Below, piece by piece: positions 44,059-63,890 of a stretch of DNA of 64,000 nt. How positions within the stretch are numbered: the stretch's first letter is position 1; each line of letters opens with the position of its first letter. The notes below the pieces were generated by a model. The model was not told where the DNA came from, made no database searches, and saw only the letters and a list, made by a program, of their open reading frames with translations. Source of the stretch: Burkholderia sp. USMB20 (GTDB taxonomy: Bacteria > Pseudomonadota > Gammaproteobacteria > Burkholderiales > Burkholderiaceae); assembly GCF_000949135.2 (NCBI RefSeq), contig NZ_JTAN02000017.1, positions 394,108 through 458,107 on the forward strand. Reading direction: 5' to 3'. Made by a program: the position numbers and the translations under genes.

Positions 44059-44076
44059 GATTGCATTCCTCCAGTG

Positions 44077-44844: not shown

Positions 44845-44871
44845 TCGCAGTCCGTAGTCAGTATTCGATAG

Positions 44872-46681: not shown

Positions 46682-47686
46682 ATGGGGCCGCAGATGATCT
46701 CGCCGGGTTTCGTCGAGGATGCGCTCGAGAGCCTGCGCCGGCGGCGGATGCCGACCGAGGCCGTGCTGCGTGCCGCCGGCCTGCCGGCCGCCGTGCGCGA
46801 GCCCGTCACGCCGCAGCAGTACGGCCGGTTGTGGCTGGCGATCGCCAGCGCGATCGATGACGAATTCTTCGGGCTCGCGGCCCGCCCGATGCGGCGCGGC
46901 AGCTTCACGCTGCTGTGCCATGCCGTGCTGCACGCGGGCACGCTCGAGAAGGCGCTGCGGCGTGCGCTGCAGTTCCTGCGTGTCGTGCTCGACGAACCGC
47001 ACGGCGAGCTCGTGGTCGCCGACGGCCAGGCGCAGATCGTCCTCACGCAGGCAGGCGCACCGTATTCGGCGTTCGCTTACCGGACGTTCTGGCTGATCCT
47101 GCTCGGCGTCGCCTGCTGGCTTATCGGCCGGCGCATTCCGCTGCAGCGCATCGATTTCGCGTGCCCGAGCCCCGACCAGCGCGGTGACTACCACCAGTTC
47201 TTCGGTGTGCCCGTGCATTTCGACCGCCCCGACAGCCGGCTCGCGTTCAACGCCACGTACCTCGCGCTGCCGACGATCCGCTCCGCGCAGGCGCTGAAGA
47301 CCTTCCTGCGCTGCGCGCCCGGCAACCTGCTCGTGCGCTATCGGCACGACACCGGCTGGGTGGCGAAGACGCGCGCACGACTGAAGGCGCTGCCGGCCAG
47401 CGAGTGGCCGGACTTCGACACGCTGGCCGTGCGCCTCGGCACGACGCCCGCGACGCTGCGGCGACGCCTGCGCAGCGAGGGGCAGAGCTTCGCGTCGATC
47501 AAGGACGAACTGCGCGGCGCGCTGGCCCAGTCGCTGCTGCGCGGACAAACGCTCAGCGTCGCGGAAATCGCGGCGGAACTCGGTTTTACCGAGCCCAGTG
47601 CGTTTCATCGTGCGTTCCGGAAATGGACGGGGACGAGCCCGGGGGCGTTTCGGCGGGAGGTCAATGGGGCGCAGGCGAAGCATTGA
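46682..47686 (+). CDS. AraC-family transcriptional regulator
   Basis: A 334-residue activator, divergent from the acyl-CoA synthetase operon by 136 bases and probably its regulator. The C-terminal AraC DNA-binding domain (about 235-330) includes FDTLAVRLGTTPATLRRRL and LSVAEIAAELGFTEPSAFHR followed by RKWTGTSPGAFRRE. The N-terminal ligand domain is of the OruR/arabinose-binding-like type common with acyl-CoA genes. ATG 46682 is spaced 10 bases from GGAGG at 46667-46671; longer starts at 46661 and 46646 are in frame. Confidence 0.9.
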   Translation: MGPQMISPGFVEDALESLRRRRMPTEAVLRAAGLPAAVREPVTPQQYGRLWLAIASAIDDEFFGLAARPMRRGSFTLLCHAVLHAGTLEKALRRALQFLRVVLDEPHGELVVADGQAQIVLTQAGAPYSAFAYRTFWLILLGVACWLIGRRIPLQRIDFACPSPDQRGDYHQFFGVPVHFDRPDSRLAFNATYLALPTIRSAQALKTFLRCAPGNLLVRYRHDTGWVAKTRARLKALPASEWPDFDTLAVRLGTTPATLRRRLRSEGQSFASIKDELRGALAQSLLRGQTLSVAEIAAELGFTEPSAFHRAFRKWTGTSPGAFRREVNGAQAKH

Positions 47687-48034
47687 ATTGGGGCGCAGGC
47701 GCCACGCTCGATGCGAGCGCGCTGACGGGTAAGGCCGACGTGCATGACCGCTGTGAATTTCAGCAGTCGTGCGATTGCTCAAGCCGTTGGCCTTCAAAGG
47801 AATTTCTGGAAGAACCGTCTTCCTTTGCTTCAAGAGGCGATTCCTGCTCATTCGACGACCAAGCAATCGATTCGGCTGCGAGCCCGCTATCACTGTGCTG
47901 TTTGTTGGCGCTCGAACACTTCCGGCATCGACAACGACGCAGCGCGGAATCGACCGTGCCGCATGCCGGCGCGAAGTTGCGCGTTGCGCTGCCTGACCAC
48001 ATACTGACCGGCACATGCGAACAAGAGCGCTTCG
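47687..48034. other. Intergenic region with no gene
   Basis: 348 bases after the AraC gene, with no open frame or repeat I can support. It leads into the membrane-protein remnant. Confidence 0.4.
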
Positions 48035-48330
48035 ATGCTGACTGTCGATCAGGGTGCCGCTTCGGTGCCCGGTATCGCCGGATCTGCCGTGTCCCTGCTG
48101 GCAGCAATCCGTACGCGCTCGCGATCTACCGGCGCACCGTTCGCCCGCATCTGTTCACGTGGCTCATCTGGTCGGTCGTCACGGCGATCGCGGCCGCCGG
48201 CCAGTTCGTCGCAGGTGCCGGACCATCTGCATGGTGCGCGGCGGCGATCGCGCTCACCTGCTTTCTGACTTTTATAGCTCAGCCTTGCTACGTGGTCGTC
48301 GATTCGGGCGCTTTTGCGCCATTCTGGTGA
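48035..48330 (+). pseudogene. Frameshifted remnant of a small multi-pass membrane protein
   Basis: One frame from ATG 48035 reads MLTVDQGAASVPGIAGSAVSLLAA. A second frame from about 48100 continues NPYALAIYRRTVRPHLFTWL then IWSVVTAIAAAGQFVAGAG, ending at a TGA near 48330. Joined, they resemble a family of hypothetical bacterial inner-membrane proteins with YxR…RPHxFTWxIW helices. A single frameshift near 48100 separates the halves, and the protein is also shorter than such families. Function unknown. Confidence 0.5.
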
Positions 48331-48336
48331 TGACGT

Positions 48337-49185
48337 TTATTGTTGAATTGTTGCATTCTTCATCAGTCCACCGACGAAATTCGCCGTCGCCTTCTCAAGC
48401 GCCAACGCTTGCAACTGCTGCTGAATCGTCGCCTTTGCGGTTTCAAACGATGGCACCTGCGTCGGTCGCTTCGCATCGACCTTAACGATCGCACGTGGGC
48501 CATTCACGTCATTGCCAAGCGCGATCGACTGCGGCGTCACGCCGCCTGCGGGCAATTGCGTAATCGCCTGTGCAACGGCGAGTGGCAACCCTTGCGTATT
48601 CCCCTCTGTCACCGGCGTCTTGAAGCTCAGCCACGGCAGCTCACCGCCGGCCGCAGCGGTCGGCGCCTGACTGTACTGTCGAGCCAGTGCATCGAACGAC
48701 TGACCCGCTTTCAGGCCGGCCAGGACCGTCGCAGCGGTCGCCGCATCTTTCGTCACGATGATGCGCGGCTTGATCTCCTCCTTTCCGAGGGACGCAACGA
48801 TTTCATCGTACCGCGCCTTCACTTGTGCATCGGAGACCGGCTCCGGCTTCACGTTATCGCGCACGAACAGTTGCGTCTCGGCAGTCGATTTCGCAAGCTG
48901 CATGGCCGCCTGCACTTCGGGCTTGCTGCCGTAGCTCGCTTTGTCGGCCGCTTGCTGAATCAGGACGCGCGCGATCAGTTGATTCTTGATCGCTTGGCGA
49001 AACTGCGGCGTATCGGGCTGGCGCGATGCCTGCAGCACGGCGTCGACCTCGGCCTTGGTGATCGGTGTACCGTTCACCGTTGCGACGGCACCCTCGGGCA
49101 ACGCCGAGGTTTGCGCTTGGACAGGCAGCGCCAATTGCCAGGCAATCGTCGTCGCGATCAGAATTCGGTTGAACGTCGTTTGCAT
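48337..49185 (-). CDS. Periplasmic peptidyl-prolyl cis-trans isomerase/chaperone (SurA/PpiC-like, EpsD-type)
   Basis: A 282-residue protein with a signal peptide (MQTTFNRILIATTIAWQL… to AQ) and an N-terminal SurA-like chaperone helix region (about 27-115, ATVNGTPITKAEVDAVLQAS). A parvulin-like domain follows (about 135-235: KPRIIVTKDAAT, AGQSFDALARQYSQAP, GGELPWLS). AGGAG eight bases before ATG 49185. It lies 96 bases after the TpsB gene on the same strand, the last gene of the CDI locus. A role in keeping TpsA/TpsB foldable in the periplasm is inferred from this position. Confidence 0.82.
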   Translation of the reverse strand: MQTTFNRILIATTIAWQLALPVQAQTSALPEGAVATVNGTPITKAEVDAVLQASRQPDTPQFRQAIKNQLIARVLIQQAADKASYGSKPEVQAAMQLAKSTAETQLFVRDNVKPEPVSDAQVKARYDEIVASLGKEEIKPRIIVTKDAATAATVLAGLKAGQSFDALARQYSQAPTAAAGGELPWLSFKTPVTEGNTQGLPLAVAQAITQLPAGGVTPQSIALGNDVNGPRAIVKVDAKRPTQVPSFETAKATIQQQLQALALEKATANFVGGLMKNATIQQ

Positions 49186-49239
49186 GCTTGATGCTCCTGC
49201 TTGTAAAGAAAGGCACAGCAACCTCAGTCGCTACGCAAA

Positions 49240-49268
49240 GTGTCCGACACTGAGGGGCAATCGGACAC
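49240..49268. terminator. Hairpin between tpsB and the PPIase gene
   Basis: GTGTCCGA (49240-49247), 13 bases, TCGGACAC (49261-49268), between the TpsB stop and the PPIase start on the minus strand. It could be a partial terminator lowering expression of the last gene, or a regulator site. Confidence 0.45.
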
Positions 49269-49281
49269 GACCAAATCCACT

Positions 49282-51081
49282 CTAGTAAAACCAGTTCAAG
49301 GTGCCGAGTACCAGAGTCGCCTTGTTGCCCAGTGCGGCCGGCTGTGTCAGCGCGCGACCGACCAACACTTCGCCCGACAGCGACTGCTTGCGACACTGCC
49401 ATTGCGCACGCAGGCCCGCCCCGATACCGGCGAGCGTCGGGAAGCCCGACGCACCGATCAGGCTCGTCTTGCCGGCATCGAGGAATATGTACGGCTCGAT
49501 ACGGCCGTCCTTCCACATCGGAACGTTCACCCACGCGAACTCGTTACGCGCATAGAGGCCACGGTCCCCCGCGATCTCGCCCGAGCGAAAGCCCCGGATC
49601 GTATCCATGCCGCCGAGGTAGAGCTGCTCCGAGCCGTACAGGGCCGTATTCGTGTACTGGCCGCCCAACACGCCCCGATACACCAGCACCGCGCCATTCA
49701 ACTTCGGCAGCGGCAACGTAACCGTTGCTGTCGCATCGAGCTTGGTGAACTGGCTATGCGCCGCGTCGCGCGCAATCCCATGCTCGTCGTGGTTTGCACC
49801 GAACCACGGCAGGCCTTGCGACACGCCGCCATTGACGGTGAAATTCCCCTGCGCGTCGTTCATCACGAACTTGTGCAGCCAGTTCCCGCCGATTCGGAGC
49901 ACGGCGACGCGCTGCGGATCGAGGTCTGCCCCGTTGATGGTCCGGTCGGTGCGCCGCCACGACAGCGTCGTGTCAATGCTGGTGATGTCGCTTACCGTTC
50001 TGCCGACCAGATAGTTCCAGCCGAAAATATGCGACAGCGTGCGGCCATACAGCAGCGCCGTCGAGCCGATCAGTTGCTGGTATTCCGAATCCGCGATCGT
50101 GTAGCTAAAGGTATTCCGCCCGAACGGCACGGCGAACGATCCTACCAGTGCGTTGCTGTCCTGACTGTCAAGGAAGTTGAGACTCAGCGATTCCTGCAGC
50201 CCGATCAGGTTGTTTGCTTCGACGCCGGCCCGATAGCGCGTAACGCCCGTTGCCGAACTGCCGTAGTTGTCGACACCGAGATTGAAATACAGCCGGTCGC
50301 CGGGCTTGTTGTCGATCGCGACAACTGAATCGCCGGCATTCTGGCCCGGCAGGATCTGCACCGCAGCCTGATTGCGGCGCAGGCGGTTGATCTGCGCGAC
50401 TCCTTGATCGATGTCAGACAGACGGAGTGGATCGCCGGGCGACACCGGAAATGCATTCGCATAACCAACGTCGGTGAGCCAGCCGCCGCCCGCCGACGCT
50501 TCACCGGGCGTGAGGCGATGAATCGGCTGCCCGTTGACCAGAAAACCAGCGACGTGGCCCACCTGAATCGTGACCCGGAGGGTGCCGGTCGACAGATTCT
50601 GTTTGCCAAGCAATGCGCGCGTCGTCACATAACCCGACGAGACGAATGTATCCGTCAGGCGCTTCAAGAGCACATTGATGCGGTGCGTGCCGAGATCGTG
50701 ATTCGTGAACTCAGTGACGACGGCATCGAGTTTCGCGCGCGACACCCCGCCAGGCGACTCGAACGGCTTACCGTCGGCCGATTGCAGCAGGATCTCCCCG
50801 ATCCGAAATGCCGGGCCACTTTCGACGATCGCGTCGACAGGCGTACCGGGTGGCACGTCGAGCGTCGTATCGGACGGCGGCGGAATCGTCACCGAAGGCG
50901 GCGGTTGCTCGAGCTGACGCTGGCGCGCCTGTTCGCGTTGCTGTTCAATGATCAGTTGCGCGGGGTCCTGCACCGGTCGAACCGCCGGAGGCACCGATTG
51001 CGCATGCGCAGGCATGTACCATGCTGCGAGGCTCGCGACCAGTAGCGGCAGCTTGTATCGAGGGAAGACGGGTGCTTTCAT
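49282..51081 (-). CDS. Two-partner secretion outer-membrane transporter TpsB (CdiB/BcpB/ShlB-like)
   Basis: A 599-residue Omp85-family transporter that exports TpsA/CdiA exoproteins. After a signal peptide ending PAHAQ come a Pro-rich linker and POTRA domains (about 85-235, …AFRIGEILLQSADGKPF…). The 16-strand barrel follows, with GGMDTIRGFRSG (motif with the IRGF tetrad that closes the pore loop) near residue 495 and a terminal Tyr (NWFY). No clear Shine-Dalgarno precedes ATG 51081. It is the only TpsB in the locus, so it must serve CdiA and presumably the second TpsA. Confidence 0.93.
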   Translation of the reverse strand: MKAPVFPRYKLPLLVASLAAWYMPAHAQSVPPAVRPVQDPAQLIIEQQREQARQRQLEQPPPSVTIPPPSDTTLDVPPGTPVDAIVESGPAFRIGEILLQSADGKPFESPGGVSRAKLDAVVTEFTNHDLGTHRINVLLKRLTDTFVSSGYVTTRALLGKQNLSTGTLRVTIQVGHVAGFLVNGQPIHRLTPGEASAGGGWLTDVGYANAFPVSPGDPLRLSDIDQGVAQINRLRRNQAAVQILPGQNAGDSVVAIDNKPGDRLYFNLGVDNYGSSATGVTRYRAGVEANNLIGLQESLSLNFLDSQDSNALVGSFAVPFGRNTFSYTIADSEYQQLIGSTALLYGRTLSHIFGWNYLVGRTVSDITSIDTTLSWRRTDRTINGADLDPQRVAVLRIGGNWLHKFVMNDAQGNFTVNGGVSQGLPWFGANHDEHGIARDAAHSQFTKLDATATVTLPLPKLNGAVLVYRGVLGGQYTNTALYGSEQLYLGGMDTIRGFRSGEIAGDRGLYARNEFAWVNVPMWKDGRIEPYIFLDAGKTSLIGASGFPTLAGIGAGLRAQWQCRKQSLSGEVLVGRALTQPAALGNKATLVLGTLNWFY

Positions 51082-51222
51082 CGTTGTTGTGCGTGCAGAA
51101 ACCCGTGAACCGATGTGGCGTTACCGGCGGCACCGCTCATCGACGCGGCGAAAACGACCGTGATTGTCAGAACAGCGGCGACGCCCATTTCGAGGCGATT
51201 TTTCGTTCGATAGCTCATTCGC

Positions 51223-53319
51223 TCAACGCCACCACCACGTCGTCAGGCCCAAATGCTGATCGATCGAAACCGGCGTTCTCGACGGCGCACGCACGGTAGT
51301 GATGCCGCCAGTAGCCGTCACTCCCTTTGCGCCGCTGAACGAGCCGCCGTCGATCACGCCGTCTCCGGTCAGAAAGACCTGCCCATTCGCGGCGAAGCCG
51401 CCGCCGATATCCATCGCGATCAACTGCGCCCACGTGCTGCCAAAGAATGCCTTGAAGCCACGATCCTGATTGATCGCCGAGTATCCGGTCACTCCCTGCG
51501 CATAAGTGATCGGCGCGTCGACCTTGATGTCACCCGTCGCAAAGACATTGCCACCGACGTTGCGCGCGACTGAGCCGCTCTTGATCGAGATGTTGCCGCC
51601 CGCCGTGGATTGCGAATCGCCGCTCGCCTGAATCGTGCCGCCGTAGGGCGTGACGTTGCTCGACGCGTTGGCGTGACAAAAGATCCAGCAGCTGCGCGAG
51701 TAGTTCGCCTTCCCCGAGAACACGGCCGCATTCGTGAACGCGTTCTGCGCCGCAATGGCGACATCACCGCCAGTCGCTTGAATGACGCCGCCCGAATTCG
51801 TTACGTTGCGTCCGGTGATCGTCAACGGCCCGCTGGTCGTCGCGAGATAGGCAATCTGATCGGGCCGATTGACGGTACCGTAATCAACGTTCACGCCGGT
51901 TGTCGAATGCGTGAAGAAAAGGAAGCTGCCGCCTCGATCCGTATAGGCTGTTGGCTGGCCGCCATTCGTGCCACCCGAATGGTCGATGACGTTCAGCACG
52001 TCGCCGGCCGCCGTCAGGCTCATGCCGCCGTTGGATGCGATACGCGCGTTATCGTTGATGATGTTGCCGCCCGCAGTCAGCGATGTCTTGCCGTTGGCCG
52101 AGAAAATGATGCCCTGATTGCCGTCGCTCGATCCGTTGAGAATATCGCCCGCCGCGCTTAGCGTCAGGTCGCCCCCGGAAGGTGTGCCGTTTGCCGTCGT
52201 ACCCGCCTGAATCACGCTGCCGACGTTCGTAATGGTGCCGCTGCTCGTCAGGTTGACGGCGTTGTTTGCACTCAGCGTCGACGGGCCGGCCGCATCGTCC
52301 GAAAGCGTAATCGAGCTGGCGTGGACCGTCGCATTGATCCCGGCGCTCAGTTGGGCGCCCTGTAGCGTTACCGCGCCGGTCGTCGCGATCGACGCGTCGT
52401 GTGCACCGAAAAACTGGTTGTCGGCAATCTTTACGTCGCCGGTAGACGTGACCACGGCATCGCCCGCGTTCGCGTAGAGCTTGCCGAGGCTGCGCACGCC
52501 GGCGCCCTGATCGGTGATGATCAGTTCCACTCGGCCGGCCGTGAGTCCGCCGGCGGCCGTGATGTCGACCGCGAGCGAGTCGCTTGCCGCTCCGGGGGAG
52601 GTCATACCGATCAGCCAGTCGTGGCCGTTATCGGTTGGCGACATGCCCCCGTTCCAGCTCGTGGTGCTGCTGCCGACTGTGCCGCGGACAAAACTGGGCA
52701 CACCGGTCTTGTTGTCGTAAGTATTCGTCACCGGTCCGTTCACGGCCAGTTGCTTTGCGACCAGATCGAGACCGATGAGATTGCCCGTCAGGCCGCCAGC
52801 ACCGATCGTGATTGTGCCGCGATCCGTGTTCAGCACGACGTTGCGCTGCACCGTGCCGGGCGCGAGCGTCACATCGGCGAAGCTCACCTGGCCCGTCGAC
52901 AGCACGACGTGGCCAGTGTTCGTGAAGCTTCCGCCGTCTACCGTCACGCCGTTCGGATTGGCCAGAATGACGTTCGCGCGCGGTCCGAGGACGTTGATGT
53001 TGCCCTGGATTAGCGACGGGTTTGTGCTCGTGACCTGGTTGACGATCGTGCGCGCGTTGATGCCGACGTTGTTCAGATCGGCACCGGCTTTCGAGACGTT
53101 GAAAGACGAGTAGGTATTGTTCGAGACACCGCCGACCGAAGGAGCAATATTGACCGTTTGGCGACCACCCGCGCCCGCCGAAACAGACGTCGCCGTACCA
53201 CCGTCTGGAACGATGGTTCCGGCGAATACAGCATTCTGCCAAACCGGATATGACATCATTAGTAGTATTGAGAAATGCTTGGCGTGCACGAATCGCCCGA
53301 TTTCGTTGACTTTCATCAT
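51223..53319 (-). CDS. Second, smaller TpsA exoprotein (filamentous haemagglutinin N-terminal-type)
   Basis: A 698-residue secreted beta-helix protein. Signal peptide near residues 10-33 (…SYPVWQNAVFAGTI), then a TPS recognition domain with NPSLIQGNINVLG and ANPNGVTVDGGSF (the conserved NPNG element). Repetitive GG-rich beta-helical repeats follow up to the end. A close Cys pair occurs in CWIFC; no toxin or pretoxin motif is visible. Two ATGs (53319, 53316) are possible; GGGGTG favours either. It sits between the lipoprotein and TpsB genes, where CDI loci normally hold no second exoprotein. Could be a separate adhesin or a remnant of a former CdiA. Confidence 0.88.
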   Translation of the reverse strand: MMKVNEIGRFVHAKHFSILLMMSYPVWQNAVFAGTIVPDGGTATSVSAGAGGRQTVNIAPSVGGVSNNTYSSFNVSKAGADLNNVGINARTIVNQVTSTNPSLIQGNINVLGPRANVILANPNGVTVDGGSFTNTGHVVLSTGQVSFADVTLAPGTVQRNVVLNTDRGTITIGAGGLTGNLIGLDLVAKQLAVNGPVTNTYDNKTGVPSFVRGTVGSSTTSWNGGMSPTDNGHDWLIGMTSPGAASDSLAVDITAAGGLTAGRVELIITDQGAGVRSLGKLYANAGDAVVTSTGDVKIADNQFFGAHDASIATTGAVTLQGAQLSAGINATVHASSITLSDDAAGPSTLSANNAVNLTSSGTITNVGSVIQAGTTANGTPSGGDLTLSAAGDILNGSSDGNQGIIFSANGKTSLTAGGNIINDNARIASNGGMSLTAAGDVLNVIDHSGGTNGGQPTAYTDRGGSFLFFTHSTTGVNVDYGTVNRPDQIAYLATTSGPLTITGRNVTNSGGVIQATGGDVAIAAQNAFTNAAVFSGKANYSRSCWIFCHANASSNVTPYGGTIQASGDSQSTAGGNISIKSGSVARNVGGNVFATGDIKVDAPITYAQGVTGYSAINQDRGFKAFFGSTWAQLIAMDIGGGFAANGQVFLTGDGVIDGGSFSGAKGVTATGGITTVRAPSRTPVSIDQHLGLTTWWWR

Positions 53320-53336
53320 GTCACCCCGGCGTCTTC

Positions 53337-54209
53337 TTACTTCTGGCTTGCGCTGGCGGATTGCGTTATTCCGCGGCCGGTTAGTAACGCGGTGCGGAAC
53401 AGTGGCACGAAGCTCATGAGCGCCTCATCGATTCCCTTGATGGCGTTGGGCAGATCCTTCACCAAGTCGGCATAAAAAGGATAGACAAAAGGACCATTGT
53501 CCTTGACATTCGAGGCGGAGTTAGAGCCGGTATTTTTATTGACGCCGCCACCACCGGAAGTCGGATTTAGATGAGTGGGAATCGGGAAAAATATATTCTG
53601 CGAGAAAATTGGTTCAAACGTTGCCGCCGAAAAAATTCGAATTTGGCTATTAACCGATCGAACATATGGCCAACCCAGCCCTTGTGCGCCATAACCGGTG
53701 GTAGCCGGCGCAATTAAAATCGCATCCGCTCCCGAATACGCGTCACCCTTCAATGTCGGATGCAACCAATCTCCTGCAATTTTGGGCATGCCAGCCTGAG
53801 CAAGGTTGACTTCCTTCACTTGGTAGCCTTGCGCTCGTAGCTCGGCCTCCAGTGCCTCGATGTACTTGCGGTTCAGTCCGGTATCGCCAAGCTCACTCTT
53901 GACGAGATCGTTGAAATCCTTGTTGGCACGAGTCGATACGGCCGCCGCCCCGCCGGCGATTGCCCCGCCGACAGCCGCAGCCAACAGGCCCACGCCAGGA
54001 ATCGGAACGAATACCGGCCCCCCGGCCGTAACGGCAAAATACGCCGTGGGCCTCGACACATCGACCGCAATAGTCTTGACCGTTGACATTTTTTGCGCAT
54101 CGAAATCGTAAGAGGGTTTCGATGCGCACGCACCAAGTAGCAAACTCAGCACGGCAATCGCAATGGAGCCACGAATCTGAATTCTCGCTTTCATCCCAAT
54201 ATTTTTCAT
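53337..54209 (-). CDS. Lipoprotein of the CDI locus (BcpO-like position)
   Basis: A 290-residue lipoprotein; LLGACASKP is the lipobox with the modified Cys about residue 27. A hydrophobic Gly/Ala stretch (about 60-95, …GVGLLAAAVGGAIAGGAAA…) follows a conserved-looking TIAVDVSRPTAYF. Otherwise no domain is recognised. It starts at ATG 54209 behind GGTGGG, 133 bases after the immunity gene on the minus strand, and ends 17 bases before the second TpsA. In Burkholderia bcpAIOB loci a lipoprotein BcpO lies in a comparable position; equivalence is inference. Confidence 0.72.
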   Translation of the reverse strand: MKNIGMKARIQIRGSIAIAVLSLLLGACASKPSYDFDAQKMSTVKTIAVDVSRPTAYFAVTAGGPVFVPIPGVGLLAAAVGGAIAGGAAAVSTRANKDFNDLVKSELGDTGLNRKYIEALEAELRAQGYQVKEVNLAQAGMPKIAGDWLHPTLKGDAYSGADAILIAPATTGYGAQGLGWPYVRSVNSQIRIFSAATFEPIFSQNIFFPIPTHLNPTSGGGGVNKNTGSNSASNVKDNGPFVYPFYADLVKDLPNAIKGIDEALMSFVPLFRTALLTGRGITQSASASQK

Positions 54210-54342
54210 TTTTCACCCACCGTTATCGGCCACTGTCGAATCGCCAGTTTCACCCAAACAACCCCCGCCGCTCGCGACACTACATTAATACTCTGAAATT
54301 GATCCTCAACACCAAATAGATTCCTGTCGATTCATTTTTTAT
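54210..54342. other. AT-rich spacer between the immunity and lipoprotein genes
   Basis: 133 bases of AT-rich sequence. No gene; the AT content continues into the immunity gene, as expected at a toxin/immunity exchange boundary. Confidence 0.4.
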
Positions 54343-54723
54343 TCAGAGGGAAAATATAACCCCAATATTTTTATTTAAAGCAGCACCAAGAAACCCTCGA
54401 AAACTCTCCAACTCCAAAATGAGCGTTTCCGCCAATACTTTAATTGTAAGCGGCTGCTTTTCAGCGGTCCAACGATATACAAATTCAATGTTACAATTTC
54501 CGTTCCGTTGCAATTCATGAATCCGCACCTCGAGAGCCTCGATAACTTCCGACACTATCGACACATCAACTTCATCCTCTTCAAATTGATCAAATGTTGT
54601 ACCGTTTTTCGCGTTGAAGTTTGACCAAAAATTTGACGAGAACAGCCACTCAGACAACGTCCCGGACAACCGCAACTCGCTTGATCCATCAGCTATTGAC
54701 ACTCGAGATTCGTGCATTCGCAT
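54343..54723 (-). CDS. Candidate CdiI/BcpI immunity protein
   Basis: A 126-residue acidic protein of no known family, starting at ATG 54723, ten bases after the cdiA stop and behind AAGGGG. It is markedly AT-rich, unlike the neighbouring genes. Position directly after the CdiA toxin domain, small size, low GC and lack of homologues all fit an immunity gene that is exchanged with its toxin. It should bind and block the CdiA C-terminal toxin. Not recognised by motif; the call is from context. Confidence 0.75.
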   Translation of the reverse strand: MRMHESRVSIADGSSELRLSGTLSEWLFSSNFWSNFNAKNGTTFDQFEEDEVDVSIVSEVIEALEVRIHELQRNGNCNIEFVYRWTAEKQPLTIKVLAETLILELESFRGFLGAALNKNIGVIFSL

Positions 54724-54733
54724 CACATACCCC

Positions 54734-57700
54734 TTACTTTGCTGGATCGGTATTGTTGAAATGGGTAAGTCCATTTCGTACACCATTCGGAATACCTGTC
54801 TGCGTCGTCTTGTTTGGGCCGATCAGCGGTACATTGTTGGGAATCGCGTTGCCACTCTGGTCCAGATACTGCCCCGCAGAATTCTGCACCCGATAATAGT
54901 TCCCCGCGTTGTCATACACCACGGACATGCCCGTCGTTGAGTTCGAGTAGATGGTTTTGCCAGACGTCGTGTATGTCACGACGGGATTTGCTCCGACAAC
55001 ATTCTGAACCGTTTGCCCGAGTGACCCACTTGACCAATTACCACTATTAGCTGTAGCTCGCGCGGCTCCTTGAGGATTGTAAGCCGGTCCATCTGCACTA
55101 CCAGCCGACACATTACCTGCAGCGCCCGCTGCTAGCGGCCCCCCTTGAACCGTCTGCGCTACCGGTTCAGCACCTGCCGGGAACCCAGCAGCACCTGCGC
55201 CATTGCCTGGAACGATTGGCTTTGTCTGCTTCTCGGCATCGATTTGCATGCCGGGCTTGCCGCCGATTTCATCCGAATGCTTGCCAGCAGAGTTGTTGAG
55301 CGCTTCATTCTGTGCCGCAGTAGCGCCACCCAGCGCATTCTGGCCCGCTATTCCCGCCAGCCCCCCTCCGGTAAAACCGGCGATAGTCGCAAGCATCGCC
55401 ATCCCACCACCATCAAGGTTGCCCGCGCCACCCAACGCCGCCACGATAGTCGGAGAAAGTGCTGCACTGACTGCTCCACCAATCGCACCACCACCACAGC
55501 CCTGTCCCGATGCGGCTCCAGCAGCACAACCAAGCGCGGCGTGAGCAAGCCAGTAACCTGGCGTGCCGACCTCGAACGGAGACCCTTGTACGCTTGCCGC
55601 ATTGCCGATCGCGAACGCCGCGGCTGCCGCTACGTTCGATACTGCACTGTTGCGCAGATTGGTCAGGAAACTGCCGCCCTCAATCGCCGTCTGCACGCCG
55701 GCCTGTAGCACCGACTCGGCGGCAAGCGCACCGACTGTGGTCGGTAATGAACCCGTTGCTGCACCAGCTTGCGGCACGAGCGTATTGCCTACCGACTGAA
55801 CGCCCGCCAGCGACGCGAGACTGTTCGGCGAAGCACTCCATGACCAGCCCGGGGTGCCGCCTTTGAACGTAATGCCGTTCGTCAGGCCGGCCGTGAGCCC
55901 AGCAACGCCCCCGGTTTCAAGCATCTTCCCGACACTGAATGCGCCACCGGCATTCAGCTGGCTCATCGTGCTGTTCATCATGCCGGCGAAAGCGGCCGAC
56001 AACGCGACGTTGGCCGTTCCCGCATCAACCGCCGCCGTCGTCACAGTCACTTCGGTCGCGCCAATCGCGATCGTCGATGTGCTCGCCGGCACCGCCGCAG
56101 CAAATGCCGTCCCCGACGCAGCAGACGCCATCGCCCCGATCGCAGCCGATGCCGCCATCCCCGACATGATCGAGAGGCCGGTAATGACCGCTGTCATGAA
56201 GAGCTGGTCGTACCACGCGTCACCGTCGACAACGTCCGTGTGCAGGTTATCGGTGACCGTCTGCTGCGTAAAATTCCCGCCGAGCTTCGTCTTCAGGTCC
56301 GACAGCATCTGCTGCGTTGCGGCCTGATTCACGCTACCGTCGGCATTGACCTGCTGCAGGGCCCCACCGATCTGCGCGATCGACTGCGCATTGAGCTGAT
56401 AGTTGGCGGCCGACATGAAGCCGCCTTGTTGCACTACGGTGCCCGTGGTTTGCAGGAGCACACCGTCCTGCCCGGTCTGAGAAATCGTGCCGACGTTCGT
56501 CGAACGTTGCTCGTTGGTCAGCGAATTCGTGTTGACCGTCAGGTTCTGCGCCGTGACGGTCCCCGTATTCAGGATGCTGTTCGCATAGTTGAGCGTGACG
56601 TTGGTGCCGGTGATTTCACCGTCAGCGTTCACCACCGCGAAGTTCTTCGGCAACAGCACTTCCGGCATCAACGCCTGCACCGTCGGGCACGTCGCGCCAC
56701 CGGTCGTGCTGCAACCTGGCTCCGGCACCGACTGCTCGACATACCAGAGCATCGGATGATCGACCATCGCCAGCTGTGCGTCCGACAAATGCGTGCCGAG
56801 CGCGATGTTGTGGTCCTTCGCGTACTCCAGTGCCGCACCGTAAAGTGCCGCCTTGTCCTGATTTGCGATCGACGCCTGACTCGTGCTGTCCGTGGCGCTC
56901 GTCGTGCTATAGAAACTGCTCTTGCCGGTCGCCTGCAGCGCCGCCTGCTCGATCTGCTGATTCTCCGTGTACGGGTCGTAGTAGAACGGGACATTGCCCG
57001 GCTGCAGATTCGCCGGCAGATTGGCAATCAGCGACGCTGACGAAACCGTGTCCACGACCTGCACAGCCGGGTTGTTCGTCAAGTACGTGACCGTCGTGGA
57101 TTGGCCCGAGATCGTCTTGACGGTCGCGCTCAGCGGCGTAGTCGCCTGCGTGACGATCGGCGCTACCGGCGTGCCGACGGTCCGTGTGCCGATTGGTGTG
57201 TTCACCGGCAAACCGGTTGCACCCGTCACCGACGTCGGCTGACCATTAGCGTCGACGACCCGTCCGAACGCGTTGACGGACGTCGCCAAGCCGCTCGGTG
57301 TCGTTACCGGCCCCAACGAAATCACCTGTCCCGACACGACAGGCGGCGGTGTAAAGACGTTCGGATTCGTGATGCCGTTGACGAGCTGCGAGCCAGTCAG
57401 CGCGATGGTCTGACCGATCACGTTACCGGTGTTGGTGAGCGTCGGCGAATTCATCGACAGCGAGTTGCCCGCTTGAATCGTAGCCGGCACGAAATCCGAC
57501 ATACCGACGTTCGACGGCAAGCCAGGGACAGCCTGCGCATCGCCGAGGCTGAAAGCACCGCCGTACAGGTTCTGGCAGGTCGCGGCTGAACCTTGGCAGC
57601 CCCACGTGCGAATACCGGCCGGATTGCCCGTCCAGTACGCGCGCAGATACTGGTTGTCGCTGGACGCGCTCGAGCTGGCGTTGATCGTCGCGGTATTCAG

Positions 57701-60700
57701 CGCCGTGACAAGACTACCCGTATTGCTGAACACGCCCGCCGTGATCGACAGGTTGTTGTTCGCGGTGATCGTCGACGGCTTGGCGGACTGTACTTCGATA
57801 TATGCTTCGCAGTTCTGCCCGCATCCCGTGTATGGCGAAGCGGTGCCGTAGTTCTGATGAACCGTGACTGGCGCGGCAATCGTGTTCGTGACTACCGCGG
57901 CGTTGAGAGTGACGTTGTTACCCGCCTCGATCGCACCCGAGGTGTTGCTGACGCTCGATGCTTGCGTCGTAGCATTAGCCGTCGTGCCCGCGCCACCGAT
58001 CACGACGTCGTGTGCAGCGACCAGATTGCCATACGTGTTGTTGACTTGAGTCGCTGCAATGACGATGTCGTGACCTGCCGTTACGTTACTGTTGGTCTGC
58101 TGGTAGCTGTATGTCTCCGAGTTCGGATTAGTCGTGATCAGTGACGAACAGCCTGCGTTGGAAAAGCCGGAGGCACATCCCGCCGTGACGGTCTTCGAGC
58201 CGACGTTCGAGCCTTGATTCGTGAAGCTGGTTGCCTTCACGTTCACATCATTGGCCGCAGACAGCGTACCGGCATTGGTCAGGTTTCCGCCTGACAGATT
58301 CAGATTATTACCGGCAAGGATCTGCCCGACGGCTCCTTGCGTCGTAGTGCTCGACGAGACTGTTTTCAGTTGCACCGTACCCGGCGCACCGATCGTGTAT
58401 GTGGCCGGTGGTGTCGGCGTGCCAACCAGACAGCTTCCCCCAACGCACTGGTACGTGCCATCCGGATTCGCCGTGCCAGCCACGCCAATCGGTCCGGATT
58501 TCTGCAATGTCTGCAACGACGTCAGGAACGCATTCAGAGAAGCAGCATCAACCGTGTCCGTCACCGACGATGTGAAACTCGAACCGCCATTCTGGAGCTG
58601 CTGCACATCCACGTTGGCATCGCGGCCAGCGCTTACGGTCCCGCTCTGGTTGTTAAGCGTATTGGCGGTCAGCGTGAGGTCGCGGCCAGCCGCAATGATC
58701 GAAGGCGTGACGGTCGCGCCGGTCGTAGTGGTGGTCTCGGTGACCGTCGGCAAAGCCAAGGTCTGGACCGCCGTTGCGCCCGAAACCGGCGTCGACGGCG
58801 ACTGGATCACCCACATGGCGCCGCGAGGAGCATTGCTCGTGGGCACGAGTGCGAACTGGACCGATCCCGACGTCGCAACCGGTGACGACGGATCCCCCCA
58901 ACCCTGATAGGTCAGACGGTTGACCTGTGTCGACCAAACGGTCGTGTTGGTCGGCTGCTCGCCCCCAGTCGACAAGAGCCCGCCGAGCGTGGCCGGCAGC
59001 GTTGCCTGCGAAAGGGTCAGTGTTCCGCCGTCCTTGCCGAGGTTATAGATCGCATAGATCGTTTCGGTGCCGATCTGCGTGGCCATCAATAGCCCCGCGT
59101 TGTCGACCGTCTTCGTGGTCGTGGTGGTCGTGACCGACGCTGCGGCAGTATTGTTGATATTGTTTGCCGTGATCGACAGATCGTTCGTCGCAGTCAGCGT
59201 GCCGCCTGCGTTCCCAAGGTCACCACCCAGGTTGATCGTCGCGTTACCGCTGCCGGCCGGGCTATTGCCATTGCCCGCCTTCGTCGTACCTCCTGAATTG
59301 TCATAGCTCGAACCGGTGATCGTCAGCGTATTGGCCGCTTGCACCGTTCCGGCATTCGTGCCCGAACCGTTCAGCGTGAACGCCTCATTAGCCGTGACCG
59401 TACCGCTCGCCGCGTTGGCGAGCGTTCCGTTGATCGTCAGGTCGTTGCCATTGATTGCACCCGTGTTGCCCACCGCGCCGTTCAGCGTCAGTGAACCCGT
59501 ACCTTGGTTGATCGTGCCGACGTTGTTGATGCCGTTGGCCGACGAGACCGTAACGGCCGTTCCCGGCAGCGTCCACGTACCCGAATTGCTTACCGACTGG
59601 GCGGACAGGTTCAGCCCGTTGCCGCCGTTAACGGTCCCATAGCTGGCTACCGACGGATCAAGCGTCTGGTTCGGCAGGTTTAGCGTCGCGACGTTCTGCC
59701 CGAGAATCCGGCCGTTTGTATTGTCGAACGAACCATTGCCGCCCGTGACCGTCACGGTCGTATTGCCGACTGCGGTGTTCGGATTGTTGACGTCGCCCGA
59801 GTAAATGAGGCCGTTCCCGTTGCTCAAGCTGCCGGTCGTCAGATTCAGCGCATTCGTCGCGAGCAAACCACCCCAGTTGATCGTCGCGCCCGACACGCTG
59901 AAATTTGCGGTCGGCCCGTAGATTGTTCCCGAGTTGTTGAGGTTTGCCGCAGTGACGGTCGCCGCCTGCAGCGATGACAGGCTGCCCATGTTTGTGACGG
60001 TCGTGCCCAATACACTCAGATTGCCGGCCGCCATCTGCGTGCCGACGTTCGTTACCGTGCCACCGGCGACCGTCGCGTCACCCTTGAACGCTGCGGTGCC
60101 ACCCGTCGTCACGCTCTGCGTGCCAGTGATCTGCGTCGTGCCACCCACCACGGCGTTCGCGGTCGTGACGTTCGCGCCCGACAGGGTCGCGTTACCGCCC
60201 ACCGACAACGCCGGTGCCGTTGCGCTGAAGGGTTGATTGAGCTGCCCCGCCGACGTGTCGAGATTATTCGTCGCTGTTGCGGTCAGATTCCCGCCGACCG
60301 CGACGCCCTGCGTCGTGATGTTCGTCGCCGTCAGGCTCGCATCCTTCGAAGCGGTCGTCTGGCCGTTGAGCGTGAGGTTCTGACCGGCGTTTAGCGTCGC
60401 CTTCCCAGCCGTCGAGACCGGACCGGCCACCGTCAGATTGCCCGCCTTCGCATTGGCGCTCAGATCGCCCAGGCTCTTGACGCTGCCTTGTGCGTTGAGG
60501 TCCGTGCCCGCAGTGATCGTCGTCGCCCCGCCCGAAAGGGCATCTTCAGCGATCGTCGCGCTGCCGTTGGTCGCCGTCAGCGTGCTGGTACCGACCGCCG
60601 TCGTCGCACCGACCGACAGGTCTTGACCGGCCGTCGCACTCAGATTGTTGCCGGTCTGAATCGCGCCGGAGATCGCGATGTTGTTGCCGGCATTGAGCGT

Positions 60701-63013
60701 CGTGTCGTTCGCGACGCTGAGACCGCCCGTGCCATTGATGTCACGGCCCGCCGTCACGCTGGCGTTACCGGTATTGCTGACCGCGAGACCACCGTTCAGG
60801 TTTGCATCGCGCACAGCGGCGATCGTCGTGCTCTGACCGCTCTGGAGGCTACCCGCGACGGTCGCGTCCTGCCCGGCATTGATGTTCACCGCGCCTGGCG
60901 TCGACACCGCACCCGCGACCGAGACGCTGCCCACGCTCGATCCGATCGTTGCGTTGCCGCCGCTGTAGACCGTACCGCCCAAGCGGACGCCCTCCTTGCC
61001 GCTGGCGTTGAATGCACCGAGTGACACGATGCTGCCGGTCGTCGAGAGCGATCCGCCGTTGGCCGCGAGCGTCATGTCTCCGACCGACGCGGCCGTGCCC
61101 TGCACGTTCGTATTGCCGCCCGACGTCACGCTCAGATTTGCGCCGCTCGTAATGTCGCCGCCGAGCGTCGTATCCTGCCCGGCCTGAATCGTCACCGCGC
61201 CCGGTGCGGATACCGTCCCGCCGAAACCCGCGTTCGTACCGGCCGTCGCGTTGACCGTGCTGCCGCTCTGCACCGCGCCATTCAGCCCGATCGACTGACC
61301 GGCATTCAGGTTCACTGCGCCCTGCGACGACGTGACGTTCCCTTGACCCGTAATCGAGCCGGCTTGCGCCGCAATCGATACCGGCCCCAGAGCCTGCACC
61401 GTGCCGCCCACGGCCGCATTCTGGCCTGCCGTCACCAACAGCGCTCCATTCGACAGCGCGTTGCCATTCACGGTCGCCGAACCTCTCTGCGCGGCAATCG
61501 TGGTGTCGCCCACGCCCGATACCTGGCCGTTGACGGTCGCGTTACGTGCGCCCGCCAGCGCGACCGTGCTGCCGCCCTGCACCGCACCGTTGACCGTCAG
61601 GTCTCGCCCGGCCGTCGCCGATACCGCGCCCGGTGCACTCAAGCCGCCTACCGTGAGGTCTCCGTTGGTCGTCTGCAGCGCGATATCATGCGCGGAGAGC
61701 GAACCGATCGACATCGACTGGCCCGCCGTGAGATTGGCCTCTCCGTGTGCGGCAACGGAGGCGGCATTCAGATTGCCGCCTGCGGTCAACGCGACGTTCT
61801 GCCCGGCCGACACCGAACCCGGCGCATTGATGTCGCCGTTCGCGTTGACCGTGTAATTCTGGTTTGCGAGCGCGGTGCCGTTGATCGTTGTGTTGCCCGC
61901 GCTCGTCAGCTTCACGTTCTGGTTGGCAAACGTTTGACCGACCGTGACGTCGCCATTCGAATTGACGACGACGTTCCCCGCCGTCGCGGTCAACGGACCT
62001 TGCATGTTGGCGCCAAGACCAGCCGCAGTTTGAACGATATAAACTTGCCCGGCGGTGACCGATCCAAACTGGTTCGCGTCGATCGCCAAGCCGTTCGGCG
62101 TCTGAATGGCCGTGACGTTGTTCGGTAAGCCGTTAGCTGCAGTACCGTATGCGGTGCCGGTATTGCCCGTTGTGGTCGGAGTGACGAGCTGGTTGCCTGT
62201 CACGACGTTGATGCGTTGATCCGCGCGGATCGGGGCCGCCAACGTCACCGTTTGCCCGATCAGGTCGATATTCCCGACAGTCCCTTCGATCCCTGTTCCC
62301 GGGCCGTTTACGCCTGCCGGTCCGTTGATCGAAATGTTGCCGGATCGAACGTCGTACGCGACCGCACCCGCATGTGCGAAATCGGTCGGTGTGCCACCGA
62401 TGCCTGTGATGAATTGTGGCGTGCCGGTCGTCAGCGTGAGATTCGGGATATTCGTCAGCGACAACCCGTTTGTCGATATCCCGCCGGGAGCCGCGATCAC
62501 GATCGGCGCCGCAGCACCGAAGGTCTCGAGCGGTCCGTTCAGTACCGCGATATTGTTCGACGTGACCTGGTTGATGATCAACGACGCAGGTCGACCGTTC
62601 AGATTCGGGTTCGGGCCAAGCGTACCGCCCAGCAGAGGCGTACCCGGAATCGTGCTGTTATTCAGCACGAGGCCTTCGGGTCCCACGTTGAACGACTGAT
62701 ACTGTCCGAGACTCACACCATTGGAGTTCGGCGCCGGGATATTGATAGCGGGGACGCCCGAGCTAGTCGCGGTCACCGTCGACTGAAACGGGATCGGCGC
62801 GCGTGGATCGATGATCGGCGCAGCATGCGCAGTTTGGTCGATCAAAAGCGCTGCGGGGCTGAGATACATCACGACCGACATGACCCATGCGGTCGCCTTG
62901 ACCCAAAGCGCATGCTCTTCGCTTTTCAGCGAAGCTTGGTCGAAGATAATTTTCTGTTTGGCCGTTCCCCGTTGAACGTGCCGAGCTTCTATTTCGCGCA
63001 TCAGTCGGCGCAT
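54734..63013 (-). CDS. cdiA: CdiA/BcpA-type contact-dependent inhibition exoprotein (TpsA)
   Basis: A 2759-residue secreted filamentous haemagglutinin. It has an extended signal peptide (MRRLMREIEARHVQR…, helix VKATAWVMSVVMYLSPAALL, about 1-65). A TPS recognition domain (about 66-330; LNGRPASLIINQVTS) is followed by a very long beta-helical region of NATVNGQVSGVGD-like repeats. Cys-containing segments occur near the middle and a pretoxin-like stretch near the end (…LAHAALGCAAGAASGQGCGGGA…). The last variable part follows AAQNEALNN, leaving about 185 residues as the toxin tail. ATG 63013 is preferred over a GTG at 63025. Neighbours TpsB, immunity and lipoprotein genes confirm the system. Confidence 0.93.
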   Translation of the reverse strand: MRRLMREIEARHVQRGTAKQKIIFDQASLKSEEHALWVKATAWVMSVVMYLSPAALLIDQTAHAAPIIDPRAPIPFQSTVTATSSGVPAINIPAPNSNGVSLGQYQSFNVGPEGLVLNNSTIPGTPLLGGTLGPNPNLNGRPASLIINQVTSNNIAVLNGPLETFGAAAPIVIAAPGGISTNGLSLTNIPNLTLTTGTPQFITGIGGTPTDFAHAGAVAYDVRSGNISINGPAGVNGPGTGIEGTVGNIDLIGQTVTLAAPIRADQRINVVTGNQLVTPTTTGNTGTAYGTAANGLPNNVTAIQTPNGLAIDANQFGSVTAGQVYIVQTAAGLGANMQGPLTATAGNVVVNSNGDVTVGQTFANQNVKLTSAGNTTINGTALANQNYTVNANGDINAPGSVSAGQNVALTAGGNLNAASVAAHGEANLTAGQSMSIGSLSAHDIALQTTNGDLTVGGLSAPGAVSATAGRDLTVNGAVQGGSTVALAGARNATVNGQVSGVGDTTIAAQRGSATVNGNALSNGALLVTAGQNAAVGGTVQALGPVSIAAQAGSITGQGNVTSSQGAVNLNAGQSIGLNGAVQSGSTVNATAGTNAGFGGTVSAPGAVTIQAGQDTTLGGDITSGANLSVTSGGNTNVQGTAASVGDMTLAANGGSLSTTGSIVSLGAFNASGKEGVRLGGTVYSGGNATIGSSVGSVSVAGAVSTPGAVNINAGQDATVAGSLQSGQSTTIAAVRDANLNGGLAVSNTGNASVTAGRDINGTGGLSVANDTTLNAGNNIAISGAIQTGNNLSATAGQDLSVGATTAVGTSTLTATNGSATIAEDALSGGATTITAGTDLNAQGSVKSLGDLSANAKAGNLTVAGPVSTAGKATLNAGQNLTLNGQTTASKDASLTATNITTQGVAVGGNLTATATNNLDTSAGQLNQPFSATAPALSVGGNATLSGANVTTANAVVGGTTQITGTQSVTTGGTAAFKGDATVAGGTVTNVGTQMAAGNLSVLGTTVTNMGSLSSLQAATVTAANLNNSGTIYGPTANFSVSGATINWGGLLATNALNLTTGSLSNGNGLIYSGDVNNPNTAVGNTTVTVTGGNGSFDNTNGRILGQNVATLNLPNQTLDPSVASYGTVNGGNGLNLSAQSVSNSGTWTLPGTAVTVSSANGINNVGTINQGTGSLTLNGAVGNTGAINGNDLTINGTLANAASGTVTANEAFTLNGSGTNAGTVQAANTLTITGSSYDNSGGTTKAGNGNSPAGSGNATINLGGDLGNAGGTLTATNDLSITANNINNTAAASVTTTTTTKTVDNAGLLMATQIGTETIYAIYNLGKDGGTLTLSQATLPATLGGLLSTGGEQPTNTTVWSTQVNRLTYQGWGDPSSPVATSGSVQFALVPTSNAPRGAMWVIQSPSTPVSGATAVQTLALPTVTETTTTTGATVTPSIIAAGRDLTLTANTLNNQSGTVSAGRDANVDVQQLQNGGSSFTSSVTDTVDAASLNAFLTSLQTLQKSGPIGVAGTANPDGTYQCVGGSCLVGTPTPPATYTIGAPGTVQLKTVSSSTTTQGAVGQILAGNNLNLSGGNLTNAGTLSAANDVNVKATSFTNQGSNVGSKTVTAGCASGFSNAGCSSLITTNPNSETYSYQQTNSNVTAGHDIVIAATQVNNTYGNLVAAHDVVIGGAGTTANATTQASSVSNTSGAIEAGNNVTLNAAVVTNTIAAPVTVHQNYGTASPYTGCGQNCEAYIEVQSAKPSTITANNNLSITAGVFSNTGSLVTALNTATINASSSASSDNQYLRAYWTGNPAGIRTWGCQGSAATCQNLYGGAFSLGDAQAVPGLPSNVGMSDFVPATIQAGNSLSMNSPTLTNTGNVIGQTIALTGSQLVNGITNPNVFTPPPVVSGQVISLGPVTTPSGLATSVNAFGRVVDANGQPTSVTGATGLPVNTPIGTRTVGTPVAPIVTQATTPLSATVKTISGQSTTVTYLTNNPAVQVVDTVSSASLIANLPANLQPGNVPFYYDPYTENQQIEQAALQATGKSSFYSTTSATDSTSQASIANQDKAALYGAALEYAKDHNIALGTHLSDAQLAMVDHPMLWYVEQSVPEPGCSTTGGATCPTVQALMPEVLLPKNFAVVNADGEITGTNVTLNYANSILNTGTVTAQNLTVNTNSLTNEQRSTNVGTISQTGQDGVLLQTTGTVVQQGGFMSAANYQLNAQSIAQIGGALQQVNADGSVNQAATQQMLSDLKTKLGGNFTQQTVTDNLHTDVVDGDAWYDQLFMTAVITGLSIMSGMAASAAIGAMASAASGTAFAAAVPASTSTIAIGATEVTVTTAAVDAGTANVALSAAFAGMMNSTMSQLNAGGAFSVGKMLETGGVAGLTAGLTNGITFKGGTPGWSWSASPNSLASLAGVQSVGNTLVPQAGAATGSLPTTVGALAAESVLQAGVQTAIEGGSFLTNLRNSAVSNVAAAAAFAIGNAASVQGSPFEVGTPGYWLAHAALGCAAGAASGQGCGGGAIGGAVSAALSPTIVAALGGAGNLDGGGMAMLATIAGFTGGGLAGIAGQNALGGATAAQNEALNNSAGKHSDEIGGKPGMQIDAEKQTKPIVPGNGAGAAGFPAGAEPVAQTVQGGPLAAGAAGNVSAGSADGPAYNPQGAARATANSGNWSSGSLGQTVQNVVGANPVVTYTTSGKTIYSNSTTGMSVVYDNAGNYYRVQNSAGQYLDQSGNAIPNNVPLIGPNKTTQTGIPNGVRNGLTHFNNTDPAK

Positions 63014-63475
63014 GGTTGGTCTCACTCGGTATTTTCCGCAGATGTTCGCACAGGCAAAACCGAAGGATGGTCAACAATTGTCATAACATTACCTGCCATT
63101 AGACGCGTCGTTATTACAAAGCGCCTTCACGACGATTAAGGCATAGAACCTTAAACGATCCGCAGCATGATAAACATGAAATTGCTTGGTTATTTTTGAG
63201 ATTGATTTATTCGAAAAAAGAAGCTCTCGACTGGAACGCCGCACGCCCCTGCCTGTCGTGGCCTTCATGCCGAGCCACATCGGCCATACAGCGCCTCAGA
63301 ATCGGATAGAAAGGTTAGAAAAGGTTTCAGTTAACTAAAATCTACTCGACAGATACCTCTCTATTGAGAGTATTGAGAGGCAATGGCTTTTCGCGGCAGC
63401 GGGGGTAACACGCATATGTGGTGTCAGTTGATTCACACGACACCTGCAATTTTTATGAGGTGCTGCGTTGGGTTC
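63014..63475. promoter_or_regulatory. AT-rich region upstream of cdiA
   Basis: About 460 bases without a supported gene, clearly AT-rich (especially 63100-63240 and 63310-63370). It must contain the minus-strand cdiA promoter. A perfect ACAATTGT palindrome lies near 63074. No -35/-10 pair could be assigned with confidence. Confidence 0.35.
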
Positions 63476-63890
63476 TATCAACTCAGACTTGAATTTCGCT
63501 CGGAGCCGCATCCAGGCTATCCGGAGAAATGGCTCGACTTGTGGCAACAGGATCTCGAGATCTCACCGGAGGTAATAGAAGGATCGATCGGCTACGTCGC
63601 CGAAGCCGAAGGAACGGTCATCGGATTCTGGATCCGGACGCCAGCGGATTCAGATCGCCCGACGCCCGGTTGGCTATTCGTCCACCCGGAGCATATGGGG
63701 CGGCGCATCGCCCGCGCGCTATGGGAGGATATCCGGAAGGAAGCGGCAAGGAGATAGATCAGAAGCTTCGTGATCCAAGCGGATCCGAATGCCGTTCTGT
63801 TCTGTCTGATGCTCGGGGCCGAGAAAATCGGTGAAAAGGAGTCGAGCGTGCTGCTGGCAAAATCTTTCCGATCGATCGGAAATCCGGATG
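63476..63890 (+). pseudogene. Broken GNAT-family N-acetyltransferase gene
   Basis: One frame reads YPEKWLDLWQQDLEISPEVIE…GYVAEAEGTVIGFWIRTPA…WLFVHPEHMGRRIARALWED and stops at 63757. A shifted frame then continues RSFVIQADPNAVLFCLMLGAEKIGEKESSVL. Together these are the acetyl-CoA-binding (V-H-P-E-…-GRRIA) and later strands of GNAT enzymes. The normal N terminus is missing and a frameshift splits the rest, so it is a pseudogene. Confidence 0.75.

Follow-up and report, generated by a model that had tools for sequence, protein, structure and literature searches.

Contact-dependent inhibition (CDI) is usually viewed as the work of a single exoprotein together with its transporter and its immunity protein, to which BcpO is sometimes added. 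In the bcpAIOB loci, the exoprotein gene comes first, followed by the immunity gene and later by the transporter gene, with a polymorphic exoprotein C-terminus and a small ORF ahead of the transporter (PMC3415462). Nearly all BcpA proteins, not all of them, carry the motif Nx(E/Q)LYN, and BcpO, encoded before bcpB, is either a lipoprotein of 73/74 residues or a protein of 57-172 residues without a signal, and is absent in eight loci (PMC3415462). The set of Anderson et al. comprises 58 loci, whose hosts include B. ambifaria, B. phymatum, and B. xenovorans.

In B. dolosa and B. multivorans, BcpB is reported to accept non-cognate BcpA for export as well (PMC10449530). According to the works cited therein, FhaC of Bordetella bronchiseptica serves FhaB, FhaL, and FhaS, and TpsB2 of Neisseria meningitidis, whose substrate choice is relaxed, serves several TpsA proteins. 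One TpsA of N. meningitidis is, moreover, described as active in bacterial competition. The Par27 parvulin of Bordetella pertussis interacts with FHA, and its loss left FHA secretion unaffected (PMC8151025). Lastly, HMW1 and HxuA share a special C-terminus, and the latter is a beta-helix TpsA of relatively small size (PMC5422565).

Organization of the locus and its place among CDI systems

The window, i.e., the whole stretch of 64 kb analysed in this work, harbors on its minus strand six ORFs in the order cdiA-cdiI-lipoprotein-tpsA2-tpsB-ppi. All six are open, which confirmed the place and the order that an earlier note on this DNA had assigned to them. Probing the window with tblastn retrieved one TpsB and two TPS-domain proteins, so that the claim of a single TpsB for two TPS exoproteins also held within these 64 kb.

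For the comparisons, we considered 86 loci: nine, L001-L009, come from the 12 closest plasmid records and the other 77, L010-L086, from genome contigs; the plasmid records L088, L089, and L090 stand outside the counts. The 86 loci are not independent of each other, since some genomes contribute several of them and L081 and L082, from one genome, match alike. Type A denotes loci with the giant exoprotein gene upstream of the core and cdiI between the two, as in the window, and type B those with the giant downstream of ppi.

The cdiA gene (54734..63013; this and all the following features lie on the minus strand) codes for a TPS exoprotein of 2759 residues from its ATG, or 2763 from a possible GTG start at 63025; its TPS secretion domain (PF05860, E 6.7e-26) spans 61943..62779, i.e., residues 83-361 of the GTG form. 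The tpsA2 gene (51223..53319) codes for a short TPS exoprotein of 698 residues, in which a toxin region is absent. Its TPS secretion domain (E 5.2e-31), placed by Pfam and alignment at residues 36-298 (52426..53214), has an intact NPNG, and the protein ends in the tail HLGLTTWWWR (51226..51255), which follows the pattern GLx[ST]W plus three residues. In the TPS domain of CdiA, APGG replaces the usual NPNG; the same replacement was seen in most Burkholderia type A CdiA proteins and in the Cupriavidus locus L084.

The product of tpsB (49282..51081; 599 residues) is a transporter of the ShlB/FhaC type (ShlB E 7.8e-78) with two POTRA domains, and its Pfam domains PF08479, PF17287, and PF03865 represent the POTRA part and a ShlB-type barrel. 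Both features of type Vb secretion, a TPS domain on the exoprotein and a POTRA/ShlB-type TpsB, are thus present. The ppi gene (48337..49185, with the ATG at 49185 as the preferred start and a TTG start extending it to 49221) codes for a PPIase with a SurA-like N-terminal region and a PPIC-type rotamase domain (PF13145, 44.9 bits against a curated cut-off of 27), which makes it a parvulin; an export signal was recognized by eye.

The gap between tpsA2 and tpsB holds an ORF of 46 codons (51078..51218), absent from the earlier note, with one hydrophobic segment, as judged by eye, and without any Cys, whose TGA overlaps the ATG of tpsB. We examined this gap, which measures about 140 bp, in 15 Burkholderia type A loci, and each of them has a small ORF there; its dN/dS against that of the window is 0.36-0.59 in nine loci, and in L003, L018, L032, and L062 the sequence looks unrelated. 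The lipoprotein gene (53337..54209; 290 residues) carries the pattern LLGAC, which we take to be lipobox-like. Family searches with this protein gave no significant match; a relative with 33% identity was found in B. multivorans, and the AlphaFold2 model (mean pLDDT 32) was useless. The earlier note had counted the lipoprotein among the members of the unit; this did not hold, as homologues occur in just three of the 86 loci, once on the opposite side of ppi, and the gene is better regarded as accessory. Its size and the same count also rule it out as a BcpO. Rfam and tRNA scans of the window gave no match, and the yield of the promoter and terminator scans did not exceed that of shuffled sequence.

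CdiA is a giant exoprotein with a conserved body and a polymorphic C-terminus. Its identity to the giants of L010 and L001 is 0.65-0.95 along the body, and 0.31 and 0.29, respectively, over the last 163 residues. In the 26 aligned type A giants, the divergence sets in after a NEALNN-like motif, which in the window is NEALNN itself (55292..55309; residues 2573-2578 of the GTG form); the variable region that follows (CdiA-CT, 54737..55291) comprises about 185 residues. Two complete type B giants were also compared; both have NEALNN, and they are about 0.95 identical until the end, where the value sinks to 0.35. One of the two, that of L087 (a record identical with L009), overlaps a gene whose annotation is Imm74 immunity protein.

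Family searches for the putative toxin retrieved nothing beyond a DUF637 match immediately before the variable end, barely above threshold (26.9 bits versus a cut-off of 26.6), and one relative of the last 100 residues, with 43% identity, at the end of a haemagglutinin-type protein of Moraxella bovis; a relative in that position fits what is expected of a swapped toxin end. The ORF that follows (54343..54723; 126 codons) starts with an ATG 10 bp past the cdiA stop, GTG 54726 and other upstream starts also being possible. It gave no significant match in family searches and is presumed from its position to be the immunity gene cdiI. The G + C content of the kilobase holding cdiI is 47%, versus 60-67% across the rest of cdiA.

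As in the bcpAIOB loci, the exoprotein gene of the window comes first, the presumed immunity gene next and the transporter gene later, the exoprotein C-terminus is polymorphic, and a small ORF precedes the transporter (PMC3415462). The class represented by the window differs from them in adding a second exoprotein and a PPIase, and in its boundary motif, which is NEALNN-like. None of the 33 C-region ORFs of the giant clade (some of them cut or in pieces) has the exact Nx(E/Q)LYN, a close variant (NESLYN) being present in the giant of L007 (Paraburkholderia phymatum STM815). As to gene order, type A loci keep A-I-...-B, with tpsA2 before B, and type B loci have the giant last. BcpO as described has no counterpart at the locus, where the 290-residue lipoprotein is sporadic and the 46-codon ORF, devoid of Cys, has no lipobox. 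The class also departs from the E. coli-type cdiBAI loci, lacking the order B-A-I and having VENN (searched as V[ED]NN) in none of the same 33 ORFs.

With Bordetella FhaC the locus would share the pairing of one TpsB with several TpsA proteins (PMC10449530). Here, however, the additional exoprotein is a short one whose gene immediately precedes tpsB, and its inheritance is tied to that of a PPIase and a CDI giant. Neisseria TpsB2 would be similar in its relaxed substrate choice, but the accessible part of PMC10449530 mentions no operon with a conserved short TpsA and a PPIase. Par27, likened here by description, is a parvulin too and interacts with a TpsA (PMC8151025), whereas ppi is linked to a TPS locus. 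The anchor of HMW1 and HxuA contains a C-terminal disulfide bond (PMC5422565), whereas the two Cys residues of TpsA2 (Cys544 and Cys548) are distant from its tail, which is rich in W.

The earlier note had rated the arrangement as the best candidate in the window for an undescribed one. The literature searched, which covers few subscription journals, yielded no description of a short TpsA and a PPIase in CDI loci, which agrees with that view. BpaAB (Brown 2004) could be a related system, and some of the loci of Anderson et al. could belong to this class, the second exoprotein having passed unremarked. Taking together the absence of the exact Nx(E/Q)LYN and VENN motifs, a small ORF unlike BcpO, the lack of a description, and these possible members, we consider the class a CDI variant and not a separate kind. 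Its comparison with bcpAIOB covers motif, gene order and the description of BcpO, and it may be a branch either inside or outside that group.

Recurrence and co-inheritance of the core and the giant exoprotein

The TpsA2-TpsB-PPIase core recurs in the Burkholderiaceae and beyond, joined to one clade of giant CDI exoproteins. The 77 contig loci come from Burkholderia, Paraburkholderia, Pandoraea, Trinickia, Caballeronia, Cupriavidus, Robbsia, Collimonas, Andreprevotia, and Amantichitinum. A full-length TpsA2 is encoded in 81 of the 86 loci; the other five (L068, L070, L077, L080, and L085) have no TpsA2 ORF of at least 600 residues and were excluded from the order and tail counts, and two of them (L068 and L070) retain TpsB, PPIase, and giant. 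In 73 of the 81 loci, the fetched flank contains a giant belonging to this one clade, either complete or fragmented (pieces only in, e.g., L014, L021, L022, and L066), upstream in 31 and downstream in 42, with a gap to tpsA2 of up to 5.8 kb (L006). As for the remaining eight, seven stop at contig edges and L005 has its giant about 24 kb upstream. With 31 type A and 42 type B loci, the association has thus withstood a change in gene order.

The complete six-gene order, which had been proposed as the unit to look for in other genomes, was recovered in B. lata (L011) and B. catarinensis (L012), cdiI being presumed there from the gap after cdiA; the unit that recurs is smaller.

We then considered 249 Burkholderiaceae genomes, 51 of which (about a fifth) have TpsA2 (E<=1e-60) and 49 the giant N-terminus (E<=1e-100), with both present in 48 (Fisher p 1.5e-46, relatedness ignored). 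The stricter cut-off for the giant removed G012 and G039, two genomes with a giant match only, near 1e-61. The exceptions are one genome with the giant and without TpsA2 (G046) and three with TpsA2 and without the giant (G085, G145, and G250), in all of which the open frames do not exceed 442 residues. The same picture emerges from plasmids: among the matches listed, the best 12 records are an identical set for TpsA2, giant, and TpsB, and the matches listed after them drop to 34% identity for TpsA2, 34% for the giant, and at most 31% for TpsB (accession and genome lists were compared by eye). Six of the 12 records are typed as conjugative. Furthermore, over 63 loci plus the window, the four proteins (TpsA2, TpsB, PPIase, and the giant, by its N-terminus) yield distances that are correlated with each other (r 0.84-0.94).

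Losses on both sides are also on record. Giants that are truncated or split lie beside an intact TpsA2-TpsB-PPIase core in L034, L014, and L022; the first of these, on the complete chromosome of P. xenovorans LB400, has a giant of 1862 residues that matches residues 1-1805 of the 3915-residue type B reference. Conversely, TpsA2 is broken (possibly an assembly error) in L068 and L086, although TpsB is intact there and the reading frame of the giant stays open as far as the stretch extends. According to these data, neither exoprotein looks strictly required.

The values of dN/dS against L010 are 0.105 for tpsA2 (0.105-0.202 across four comparisons), 0.05 for tpsB, and 0.086 for ppi, which places the core genes under purifying selection; for the first 2000 codons of cdiA the value is 0.141.

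The earlier note had proposed that the PPIase might be dedicated to this system, and its linkage lends support to the idea. The PPIase is encoded in 76 of the 78 loci with a full-length TpsA2 and a TpsB ORF of at least 500 residues, missing in L027 and L064. As a control, we used 20 of the 37 ShlB matches (counted by eye) not lying beside TpsA2 in ten genomes, two of these stretches being short (3.4 and 12 kb), and neither a PPIase of this family nor a TpsA2 was found in any of the 20. A TPS-domain ORF was detected by profile in seven control stretches (in L109, an ORF of 1086 residues right after TpsB) and not in the other 13, so that other kinds of TpsA may have been missed. The comparison between 76 of 78 and none of 20 suggests that the PPIase and the short exoprotein are particular to this TpsB clade. 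A divergent case is L066 (P. tropica LMG 22274, around 9896-12690), where no tpsB match was found and tpsA2 continues directly into ppi, with a fragment of a giant next to them.

Possible roles of TpsA2, TpsB, and the PPIase

TpsA2 is predicted to form a single beta-helix, and its similarity to CdiA is confined to the first ~330-360 residues (28-29% identity). The tail pattern occurs in 75 of the 81 full-length TpsA2 proteins, whereas 80 ORFs or fragments of giants all lack it. Cys544 and Cys548, about 150 residues before the end, are the only Cys residues of TpsA2, and both are invariant in 64 sequences out of 64. Moreover, the distances of the beta-helix outside the TPS domain track those of TpsB (r 0.95).

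The reading that we favour, with slightly more confidence than doubt, is that the locus represents a distinct, co-inherited class of CDI system. The rod and TpsA2 would share a single TpsB for their export, the PPIase would attend to both, and TpsA2 would support CdiA. In favour of this reading are the co-inheritance of core and giant, the overlap of tpsA2 and tpsB in most of the annotated records outside Burkholderia, and the precedents of BcpB, FhaC, and TpsB2, transporters described as serving more than one exoprotein (PMC10449530). CdiA and TpsA2 would enter the periplasm by Sec, where the PPIase would keep both exoproteins unfolded yet soluble, and the single TpsB would accept either of them through its TPS domain. 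CdiA would then be displayed as a rod, with its toxin C-terminus delivered to neighbours. TpsA2, once exported, would fold into a short beta-helix; its conserved C-terminal tail would retain it on the cell surface or on the transporter, and from there it might help to display, stabilise or dock the CdiA rod. Some data count against this reading: the TPS regions of the window are just 29% identical and that of CdiA has no NPNG, the PPIase is missing in two loci and TpsB in one (L066), some loci have a broken TpsA2 or a truncated or split giant, other TpsB proteins of the relatives could serve, and Par27, the analogue in Bordetella, proved dispensable for FHA secretion (PMC8151025).

A more demanding form of the same idea, which we put forward tentatively, is that full CDI needs TpsA2. 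Leaving the cell through the TpsB that also exports CdiA, and attached by means of its GLx[ST]W tail, TpsA2 might act as a surface cap, collar, or docking part of a machine built on two exoproteins and equipped with a periplasmic chaperone of its own. As the earlier note had proposed, a shared transporter might also couple inhibition with another surface function. The loss of NPNG in CdiA was also considered as a mark of dependence on TpsA2, a notion that is weakened by the retention of NPNG in most TpsA2-associated giants.

TpsA2 might instead be an independent adhesin and the true cognate of TpsB, CdiA only sharing the transporter without any cooperation. The overlap of tpsA2 and tpsB by 1-4 bp in four out of five annotated non-Burkholderia records (L005, L007, L009, and L088; the two genes are 32 bp apart in L006) points in this direction, as do the loci whose core is intact beside a truncated or split giant and the promiscuity of BcpB-type transporters, FhaC with its three substrates included (PMC10449530). 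Mere sharing, however, requires neither the presence of TpsA2 in 48 of the 49 genomes with a giant, and of the giant in 48 of the 51 with TpsA2, nor the survival of the association through a change in gene order; we regard this scenario as possible, if doubtful.

A further explanation is that TpsA2 serves as a gate or decoy: being short, it would fill or prime TpsB and in this way meter the export of CdiA, with no function outside. One transporter for two substrates, a short protein and a nearly fixed C-terminal tail would agree with it, but a beta-helix that diverges along with TpsB and an invariant Cys pair exceed what a decoy would seem to need, and we deem it unlikely. It is quite improbable, too, that CdiA is exported by another TpsB encoded elsewhere in the genome and that the linked TpsB serves TpsA2 alone. 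Ten relatives do have three to seven ShlB-type proteins each (E<=1e-20), and the APGG of CdiA could be read in the same sense; against this, giant, TpsB, and TpsA2 travel on the same 12 plasmids, half of them typed as conjugative, where an own transporter would be useful. Finally, the idea that tpsA2 arose from cdiA by truncation or decay, or was inserted there by chance, an outcome that the earlier note had set as its own refutation, has in its favour the TPS domain common to both proteins and was rejected as very improbable, being contradicted by the recurrence of the locus, the low dN/dS of tpsA2, the tail pattern of most full-length homologues, and a similarity to CdiA that ends with the N-terminal portion.

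Since the class has kept its PPIase and its second exoprotein while the gene order changed, it would serve as a natural test case for the dependence of CdiA on helpers on the outside and on the inside of the cell, and for the way in which a single TpsB discriminates between its two substrates.

Genomic setting

The left flank of the locus (window 30000-48300) is 91% identical, over 98% of its length, to two B. pyrrocinia replicons, and we read these flank matches as pointing to a host genome of the Burkholderia cepacia complex. The left-flank alignments stop at about 48270 in five of the six best matches and at about 48285 in the sixth, just outside ppi. In two B. multivorans records, the left-flank match stops at 444553 and 451060, respectively, and a match to the DNA right of cdiA resumes 480 bp on, at 445033 and 451540 (74% identity over 46% of the 961 bases searched). 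These records thus show an apparent empty site, with the flanks of window positions 48270-63500 about 480 bp apart, which suggests that the locus is absent there and represents variable DNA.

Lastly, B. latens LMG 24064 harbors three separate copies of the locus (L010, L017, and L032). In L001, L004, and L089, on plasmids typed as conjugative, genes for an H-NS family protein, a DUF2471 protein and a tyrosine integrase precede the locus, and imuA lies within about 20 kb. Upstream of tpsA2 in L005 and L007 are small HNH endonuclease, SMI1/KNR4, DUF637, and ADP-ribosyltransferase genes, which look like orphan toxin-immunity modules. On plasmid pBcp895-1 (L090), two RHS-repeat genes (14163-20721) start about 1.6 kb past ppi.
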